From NCBI GenBank assembly GCA_902635455.1, contig CACPNW010000002.1:1-64000 (forward strand): DNA of 64,000 nt, given 5' to 3'. This DNA comes from an uncultured Alphaproteobacteria bacterium (GTDB lineage: Bacteria; Pseudomonadota; Alphaproteobacteria; HIMB59; GCA-002718135). The first letter of the stretch is position 1. The number at the start of each line of letters is the position of its first letter. The translations under genes and the position numbers were made by a program. Below the pieces are notes generated by a model. That model was not told the origin of the DNA, ran no database searches, and saw nothing but the letters and a program-made list of their open reading frames with translations. This document shows, one piece after another, positions 27,120 through 30,588 of the stretch.

Positions 27120-27860
27120 TTAATTTAAATAGCATTTTTTGTTTCTTTTTATAGTTATATTATTCCAATCTCCCTTTAAGACGTTAAGTAAAGTTAAAAT
27201 ATTACCTTCATACTTTAAATTTGTAAGAAAATTAATTGTTTTTTGTGCTGTAATTAGCCCTGCCATTCCAGCTGCAATTCCCGAAATACCTACTGTATCA
27301 CATCTTGGAAGCTCAACATCCTTTTTGTTAGGAAAAATACAATTAAGACATAAATGATTATTTTTTTTATTTTCAAATAAAATTATTTCAGCATCAAAGC
27401 CAATGACAGAGCTACTAATAAGAGGTATTGAATTTCTTACACAATATTCGTTAACCATTTTCATTGTTTGCCAATTGTCACAAGTATCAATAACTATCGA
27501 AGATCCTTCAAGAAAATTCATATTTTTGTGGTCTAAATTTTGTTCGATGCTCTCTATTTCACAATATGGATTTATTTTTTTTAATTTTTTACTGGCAATA
27601 ATAGTTTTTTTTTTACCAATATCTTTAGAAGAAAATAAAATTTGTCTATTAAGATTACTTTTTTCTATTTTATCTCCATCAATTAATTTAAGATTTTTTA
27701 TTCCAGATGAAATTAAATAATTTGCTAAGGGACATCCTATTCCGCCAACACCAATAATAGTTATTATTGAATTTTCAAGTTTATTAATTTTGTCTTGAGA
27801 AAATTCTTTTAAAATAAATTGTCTACTGAGCATTTCAAATTCATAATCTGAGTAACTCAT
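27120..27860 (-). CDS. moeB: HesA/MoeB/ThiF-family adenylyltransferase
   Basis: E1-like enzyme that adenylates the C-terminal glycine of a MoaD- or ThiS-type sulfur carrier. It has the nucleotide loop GVGGIGCPLANYL, the Arg finger region NLNRQILF and the Cys loop PRCDTVG. Three of the four usual zinc cysteines are present (CLNC and a single C near the C-terminus); the last one is replaced where the protein ends (KKCYLN). Whether it serves molybdopterin or thiamine synthesis is not decidable here. Confidence 0.85.
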   Translation of the reverse strand: MSYSDYEFEMLSRQFILKEFSQDKINKLENSIITIIGVGGIGCPLANYLISSGIKNLKLIDGDKIEKSNLNRQILFSSKDIGKKKTIIASKKLKKINPYCEIESIEQNLDHKNMNFLEGSSIVIDTCDNWQTMKMVNEYCVRNSIPLISSSVIGFDAEIILFENKKNNHLCLNCIFPNKKDVELPRCDTVGISGIAAGMAGLITAQKTINFLTNLKYEGNILTLLNVLKGDWNNITIKRNKKCYLN

Positions 27861-29775: not shown

Positions 29776-30588
29776 ATGCCAGAACTTCCAGAAGTTGAAA
29801 CTACAATAAGGGGCTTAAACATTTTGATAGGCCTAAAAATTATTAAAGTTAATATACACAAATTTAAATTAAGATATACAATACCAAAATCAATATACAA
29901 AATCCAAAAAAATTCAATTATCACTGATATTAGTAGGGTAGCTAAATATATTTTAATTAAATTTGATAATAAGTACAGTATTGTATTTCATTTGGGAATG
30001 TCAGGGAGATTAAAAATATTAAATAATCTCGGAAAAAGACAAAAGCATGATCATTTTATTATATATTTTGAAAAAAAAAGAGTGCTAATTTTCAATGATC
30101 CAAGAAGGTTCGGTTTTATTGATTGTGACTTAACTGAAAAAATTGCTTATAAAAAATATTTTTCTATACTTGGAATAGATGCTATGAGTAAAAAGCTTAA
30201 TTCAGGTTACTTATTTGAAAAAATTAAGCAATCTAATGTCCCTATTAAGCAAATTTTATTAAATCAAACTATAATTGCAGGTATAGGCAATATCTATGCT
30301 AGTGAAATTTTATTTGAATCAAAGATATCCCCTTTTAGAAAGGGTAAAAATATAAAGAATTCAGATTTATCTGCTTTAATAGCTGCTATTAGAAAAATAC
30401 TAAAAAAAGCTATCAAGTTTGGAGGCTCTAGCATAAGAGATTATGTTTCTTCTGATGGTACCCTTGGTAATTTTCAATCTAAATTTGCTGTTTACAACAG
30501 GGAAGGAAAAACTATATCTAAATTTAAAATAAAAAAAACCATCCAATATGGAAGATCTACATATTATTGTCCAAAATTGCAAAAATAA
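29776..30588 (+). CDS. mutM: Formamidopyrimidine-DNA glycosylase, degenerate zinc finger
   Basis: Bifunctional glycosylase/AP lyase removing 8-oxoguanine. N-terminal catalytic Pro-Glu (MPELPEVETTIRGL), the Lys loop HLGMSGRLK and the H2TH segment LNQTIIAGIGNIYASEILF are intact. The C-terminal finger is altered: where C-x2-C...C-x2-C is expected the sequence reads GKTISKFKIKK and YYCPKLQK, leaving one Cys (C265). The Arg of GRSTYY (R260) that contacts DNA is kept. This suggests a zincless finger rather than loss of function. Length 270 is normal. Confidence 0.93.
   Translation: MPELPEVETTIRGLNILIGLKIIKVNIHKFKLRYTIPKSIYKIQKNSIITDISRVAKYILIKFDNKYSIVFHLGMSGRLKILNNLGKRQKHDHFIIYFEKKRVLIFNDPRRFGFIDCDLTEKIAYKKYFSILGIDAMSKKLNSGYLFEKIKQSNVPIKQILLNQTIIAGIGNIYASEILFESKISPFRKGKNIKNSDLSALIAAIRKILKKAIKFGGSSIRDYVSSDGTLGNFQSKFAVYNREGKTISKFKIKKTIQYGRSTYYCPKLQK

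Follow-up and report, generated by a model that had tools for sequence, protein, structure and literature searches.

A zincless-type finger on the MutM DNA glycosylase of the alphaproteobacterial order HIMB59

The window, the whole 64,000-nucleotide stretch of DNA analysed here, derives from a 1.14-Mb, 68% complete genome of the order HIMB59 and harbors an intact reading frame coding for a MutM (Fpg) protein (Table 1). The gene is located between what we take, by reading, to be a divergent ubiE on one side and rpsT-dnaA on the other. Its translated product shows full-length matches to the NCBIfam models PRK01103 (282 bits; cut-off 212) and TIGR00577 (247 bits; cut-off 203), and matches the Pfam families Fapy_DNA_glyco and H2TH, while its top match in the PDB is the MutM protein of Neisseria meningitidis (E = 1.5e-48). 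The C-terminal finger is matched by neither of two Pfam finger models: PF06827 (zf-FPG_IleRS) gives no match even at E<=10, and the NEIL1 finger model PF09292 likewise gives none. Pro2, Glu3, Lys57, the H2TH residue Asn172 and the Met75/Arg110/Phe112 triad are invariant in the alignments, the catalytic role of Pro2-Glu3 being established Fpg chemistry. Since all of these residues are conserved, as are the glycines of the 8-oxoG capping loop, the protein is predicted to act as a glycosylase/lyase on 8-oxoG and FapyG. Elsewhere in the window, a MoeB/ThiF-like E1 protein (27120-27860, - strand) retains its first zinc pair (CLNC), its C-terminal pair being reduced to one Cys (KKCYLN), as is also observed in 26 sequences of the family to which the window belongs.

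Table 1. Coordinates of mutM and of its functional elements in the window.
Feature	Coordinates	Strand	Basis
mutM (fpg), 270 aa; formamidopyrimidine/8-oxoguanine DNA glycosylase with AP lyase	29776..30588	+	Predicted from profiles and best PDB match
Catalytic Pro2-Glu3	29779..29784	+	Conserved throughout alignments
H2TH domain, residues 132-222, including Asn172	30169..30441	+	PF06831, E=1.8e-26
8-oxoG capping (recognition) loop, residues 217-234, including the glycines on either side	30424..30477	+	Gly217 and Gly231 invariant (n=41)
C-terminal finger, zincless type, residues 241-270	30496..30588	+	No PF06827 match; order-wide conservation; dN/dS 0.114; pLDDT 91-96
Ile247, Cys1 position	30514..30516	+	I/V/M in 73/73 own-family sequences
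Ile252, proposed second residue of hydrophobic mini-core	30529..30531	+	V/I in 85/85 order sequences
Finger Arg260, phosphate clamp	30553..30555	+	Invariant in all aligned sequences
Cys265, sole remaining ligand position (Cys3)	30568..30570	+	Cys in 71/73 own-family sequences; Ser/Ala in sister family (Ser in 10/12)
Leu268, Cys4 position	30577..30579	+	L/I/F in 84/85 order sequences

An earlier note on this DNA had claimed, for positions 30500-30588 with the finger, that three of the four zinc cysteines are gone from the protein, while the catalytic Pro-Glu, the H2TH domain and the finger Arg are intact, and the alignments bear out both statements. The window MutM ends in NREGKTISKFKIKKTIQYGRSTYYCPKLQK; aligned to zinc-containing MutMs, the first, second and fourth ligands of the CX2C...CX2C finger correspond to Ile247, Phe250 (Cys2, at about residue 250) and Leu268, leaving Cys265 at the Cys3 position as the one ligand cysteine of four. 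A hairpin finger that keeps its Arg without the full set of zinc ligands is present both by sequence and by model. Bacterial Fpg/MutM proteins with a CX2C-X16-CX2C finger, such as those of Escherichia coli (1k82), Geobacillus stearothermophilus (1r2y), Lactococcus lactis and N. meningitidis (6tc6), have in common with the window MutM the MPELPEVET N-terminus, the catalytic Pro, Glu and Lys, the H2TH Asn, the Met/Arg/Phe void-filling triad, the 8-oxoG loop, the finger Arg and the overall fold. Compared with their cysteine tetrad, however, only one Cys is found in the window MutM and none in most proteins of its sister family, with hydrophobic residues occupying the Cys1 and Cys4 positions.

The order HIMB59 comprises the families GCA-002718135 and HIMB59, with 29.1 and 30.7% GC, respectively (PMC10734472), while AEGEAN-169 is another name for the HIMB59 group (PMC10308909). 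The genomes analysed from the window's order fit this description, which is the basis for the clade names used here: the window's own family (GCA-002718135/AEGEAN-169) was represented by six genera, and the sister family (HIMB59) by one, including a closed 1.41-Mb genome and the genome AG-895-J15 (locus L189). Among 73 full-length MutMs of the own family, 68 have one finger cysteine, two have none and three have two, the second one being located near the Cys2 position. Nine of the twelve sister-family proteins lack finger cysteines altogether and three have one, while a further 20 of 20 MutMs from this family have none. No MutM of the order with all four cysteines was observed among the 105 full-length proteins, in which at most two of the four, and mostly one or none, are retained. 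All full-length MutMs read from the order share this loss, so that a sequencing error or a frameshift was rejected as its explanation. Position 247 is mostly Y, L, M or W in the sister family, and position 265, a Cys in the own family, is mostly S or A in the sister family, while Gly259 and Arg260 are kept in the order and Thr262 nearly always is. In one genus member (locus L045, G002:C6), an in-frame stop cuts mutM short where the finger would begin, leaving a product of 246 amino acids (...NKEGKK), which may reflect either a sequencing error or a true truncation.

MutM was found in all 20 genomes of the order that are at least 90% complete. Leaving aside split fragments, there is one Fpg/Nei gene per genome, and protein searches of the window's own genome and of the order's genomes identified no additional Fpg/Nei gene whose finger is intact; as such, no zinc-containing backup was found. 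A MutY-like partner is encoded in 39 of 40 genomes.

Outside the order, about 150 MutMs retain at least three zinc cysteines and usually four. A single-protein query gave no matches in the genome contigs, and an alignment-based search of these contigs yielded 80 named relatives, of which only that of AG-895-J15 comes from the order; the remaining 79 all have at least three finger cysteines, as do the MutMs read from other genomes of the class. The earlier note had regarded such a finger as unusual in a bacterial MutM, an opinion with which these counts agree, as does a 2011 survey of the family, according to which bacterial Fpg clades show perfect conservation of all four cysteines, zincless fingers having arisen in the lineages of plant/fungal FPG and of NEIL1 (PMC3188539). 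Within the Alphaproteobacteria, the finger is evolutionarily mobile, since several groups show shifted ligands, either as CxxCxC...C without the last Cys or as CxxGDGG with three Cys. In the former type, in which the fourth Cys is replaced (L101, L104, L106, L117, L119, L153, L156, L173, L180 and others), this ligand seems to have been relocated to the first knuckle. A drop to one or no Cys is restricted to the order HIMB59 among the genomes read. In a tree of 80 non-eukaryotic MutMs, the order groups with alphaproteobacterial MutM and forms one clade (99/87), with the own family (100/95) and the sister family (100/100) each supported. The simplest reading is a single loss of the zinc ligands in the ancestor of the order.

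Purifying selection acts more strongly on the finger than on the remainder of MutM: the finger has a dN/dS of 0.114, and of 0.056 for residues 254-268, against 0.190 for the whole protein (1345 close pairs; simple nucleotide counting, with synonymous sites near saturation). An AlphaFold2 model built on 41 sequences has a mean pLDDT of 91.4, and the finger is modelled with high confidence (residues 241-270: 91-96), with strands at 253-257 and 260-264 flanking Gly259; residues 228-232 of the capping loop fall below 50, the bounding Gly217 and Gly231 being kept. The model superposes on the zinc-containing E. coli Fpg 1k82 with TM scores of 0.91/0.94 (rmsd 1.7; 272 columns) and on the zincless Arabidopsis thaliana FPG 3twk with a TM score of 0.80. 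A sister-family MutM without any finger Cys gives pLDDT values of 75/92/95 over the finger blocks. As nearly all sequences in the underlying alignment are from zinc-containing relatives, which biases the prediction towards a canonical finger, the model supports rather than proves metal-free folding.

Zincless fingers are known from plants, fungi, animals and giant viruses, while none was found described for a bacterial MutM in the open-access full-text literature. In known structures, zinc and zincless fingers superpose and perform the same DNA-binding job (PMC4176347). Human NEIL1 and mimivirus Nei1, which belong to the other subfamily (Nei), present the finger Arg on a zinc-free beta-hairpin, as the HIMB59 MutM would. 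Another parallel is provided by the plant/fungal FPG proteins. The finger of A. thaliana FPG (3twk, residues 252-280) reads AFVDGKKIDFITAGGRTTAYVPELQKLYG, and the hydrophobic residues of its segment AFVDGKKIDFITAGGRTTAYVPELQK line up with those of the HIMB59 finger, V..I..GGRTTAYVPELQK in A. thaliana FPG1 (3twk/3twl) against I..I..YGRSTYYCPKLQK in the window MutM. Counted from the Arg, with the register set by eye, the plant residues V, I, V and L correspond to I247, I252, C265 and L268, and because they fall in register the HIMB59 and plant lineages appear to have arrived at the same hydrophobic substitute. The two proteins are, however, only 26% identical, and the HIMB59 MutM keeps the bacterial 8-oxoG capping loop, whereas the plant and fungal enzymes are reported to leave 8-oxoG unexcised (Kathe 2009, cited in PMC3188539). 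We judge the HIMB59 finger to be probably independent in origin from that of plant/fungal FPG.

A further set of MutM-like proteins is found in IMG/VR phages (L307, L309-L318, L320-L322, L327, L330 and L338), with one finger Cys and a C-terminus of the type ...HWVPQIQK or similar, in which VPxI replaces CxxC. Many are encoded on contigs larger than 100 kb and they apparently constitute a zincless viral clade. Their identity to the window MutM is 28-31%. They fall in a separate, long-branched clade (100/100), on which ground acquisition from a phage or virus was rejected.

The earlier note's proposal of a bacterial MutM that is complete but for a zincless-type finger is supported by the 105 MutMs of the order and by the AlphaFold2 model. 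Neither of the observations by which the note would have been refuted was made, as no orthologue of the order has all four Cys and the finger is modelled confidently. We consider it very probable that the protein is a working bacterial MutM and that a hydrophobic mini-core took the place of zinc a single time, in the order's ancestor, with the hairpin still presenting Arg260. In that ancestor, the zinc-thiolate cluster would have given way to a small hydrophobic core formed by Ile/Val or another hydrophobic residue at Cys1, Val/Ile at 252, Cys/Ser/Ala at Cys3 and Leu/Ile at Cys4, and these greasy side chains probably hold the finger together. The hairpin would thereby continue to present Arg260 as a clamp on the phosphates next to the flipped-out lesion, and the finger, independently evolved, would work like its zincless counterparts in plant FPG and NEIL1. 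While the loss of the ligands, its extent across the order, the purifying selection and the confidence of the model are observations, we infer that the finger would fold in solution and be free of metal, and that the order's MutM would be active as a glycosylase. With less assurance, we lean towards the fuller reading that the only MutM of this order of abundant, open-ocean bacteria carries a metal-free hydrophobic finger of independent bacterial origin which converges on the plant positions, retains 8-oxoG specificity and would be immune to chelators and thiol oxidants.

Several other explanations for the missing ligands were weighed. Zinc thiolates may have been removed to protect a repair enzyme that has to function in surface water, where sunlight is strong and oxidative stress prevails, in line with the finding that 2-thioxanthine oxidises the Fpg zinc finger, with loss of zinc, while zincless NEIL1 is resistant (PMC4176347), and with a cysteine content of 0.17% in the first 235 residues of own-family MutMs versus 0.65% in those of SAR11. 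The latter group, however, inhabits the same water and retains the zinc finger with four Cys in 30 of 30 MutMs (Pelagibacterales, recognised via the named Pelagibacteraceae locus L166, which is 65% identical to the MutM of genome G243), and the LigA and IleRS fingers are retained in HIMB59 itself, which makes such oxidation proofing an unlikely driver. As regards selective cause, the observations do not point to a shortage of zinc or cysteine; the change may have been neutral, once a core able to keep the hairpin together was in place, or may have made the finger resistant to thiol oxidation, both being compatible with the observations.

The earlier note had further suggested zinc economy in open ocean water, and this part of it was not borne out. 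Under such an economy, cells short of free zinc in surface water would shed dispensable zinc proteins, so that further losses would be predicted at other zinc sites and among streamlined bacteria of the same habitat. The organism does fit an oligotrophic marine clade, and another tetrad encoded in the window, that of the MoeB-like E1, is likewise incomplete, with three of four Cys. Zinc sites checked family by family are nevertheless kept: the IleRS of the same genome retains CHRCWK...CKRC in a finger of the same Pfam family, as it does across the order, LigA has four Cys in both families, and 25 of 31 genomes, most of them incomplete, have the zinc domain of ClpX. The zinc knuckle of the sister-family LigA (L340-L345) reads CLCG...C...C and falls below the Pfam cut-off; these weak scores are explained by a CxC variant of the CxxC spacing, the four Cys still being there. 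General loss of zinc sites was accordingly rejected. The proteome cysteine content of the order is ordinary (0.89-1.14%), close to that of SAR11 (0.98-1.21%) and of two other small alphaproteobacteria (0.84-0.85%), by which an economy of cysteine or sulphur was also rejected. MutM is moreover a low-copy protein, so that the zinc saved would be tiny. Together with the intact SAR11 fingers, these observations render zinc economy quite improbable, more so than oxidation proofing.

An alternative metal site, made up of Cys265 with nearby Asp, His or Glu residues or shared across a dimer, is less probable again. The near-constant Cys265 of the own family and the Asp found at position 250 in 47 of its 73 MutMs would be consistent with such a site. 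The sister family, however, has Ser or Ala at 265 and no conserved Cys, His or Asp was found in its finger, while position 250 varies between D, F, H, Y and C and positions 248-249 vary freely in the order. A residual role for cysteine in the own-family finger may nevertheless exist, because Cys265 is present in 71 of 73 proteins and three of them have a second Cys. Decay of the finger in a weak or dead enzyme, or an error in the sequence, might be suspected from the missing ligands and the mostly incomplete draft genomes, but is scarcely credible given the same loss in 105 order genomes, the invariant Arg and conserved hydrophobic replacements, a finger dN/dS below that of the whole protein, the intact catalytic residues and the presence of MutM in every near-complete genome.

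Replacement of the zinc site by a hydrophobic core in a working MutM would have several implications. The order provides graded cases, with two, one or no Cys, for studying the passage from a metal-stabilised to a metal-free fold, while annotation pipelines that require PF06827 are to be warned of such proteins. Because the capping loop is kept, zinc would be separable from 8-oxoG specificity in the HIMB59 MutM, which is furthermore a candidate MutM for natural resistance to oxidants. A whole bacterial order with the zincless form among zinc-keeping relatives would add an independent origin to those of the zincless fingers in this glycosylase family.
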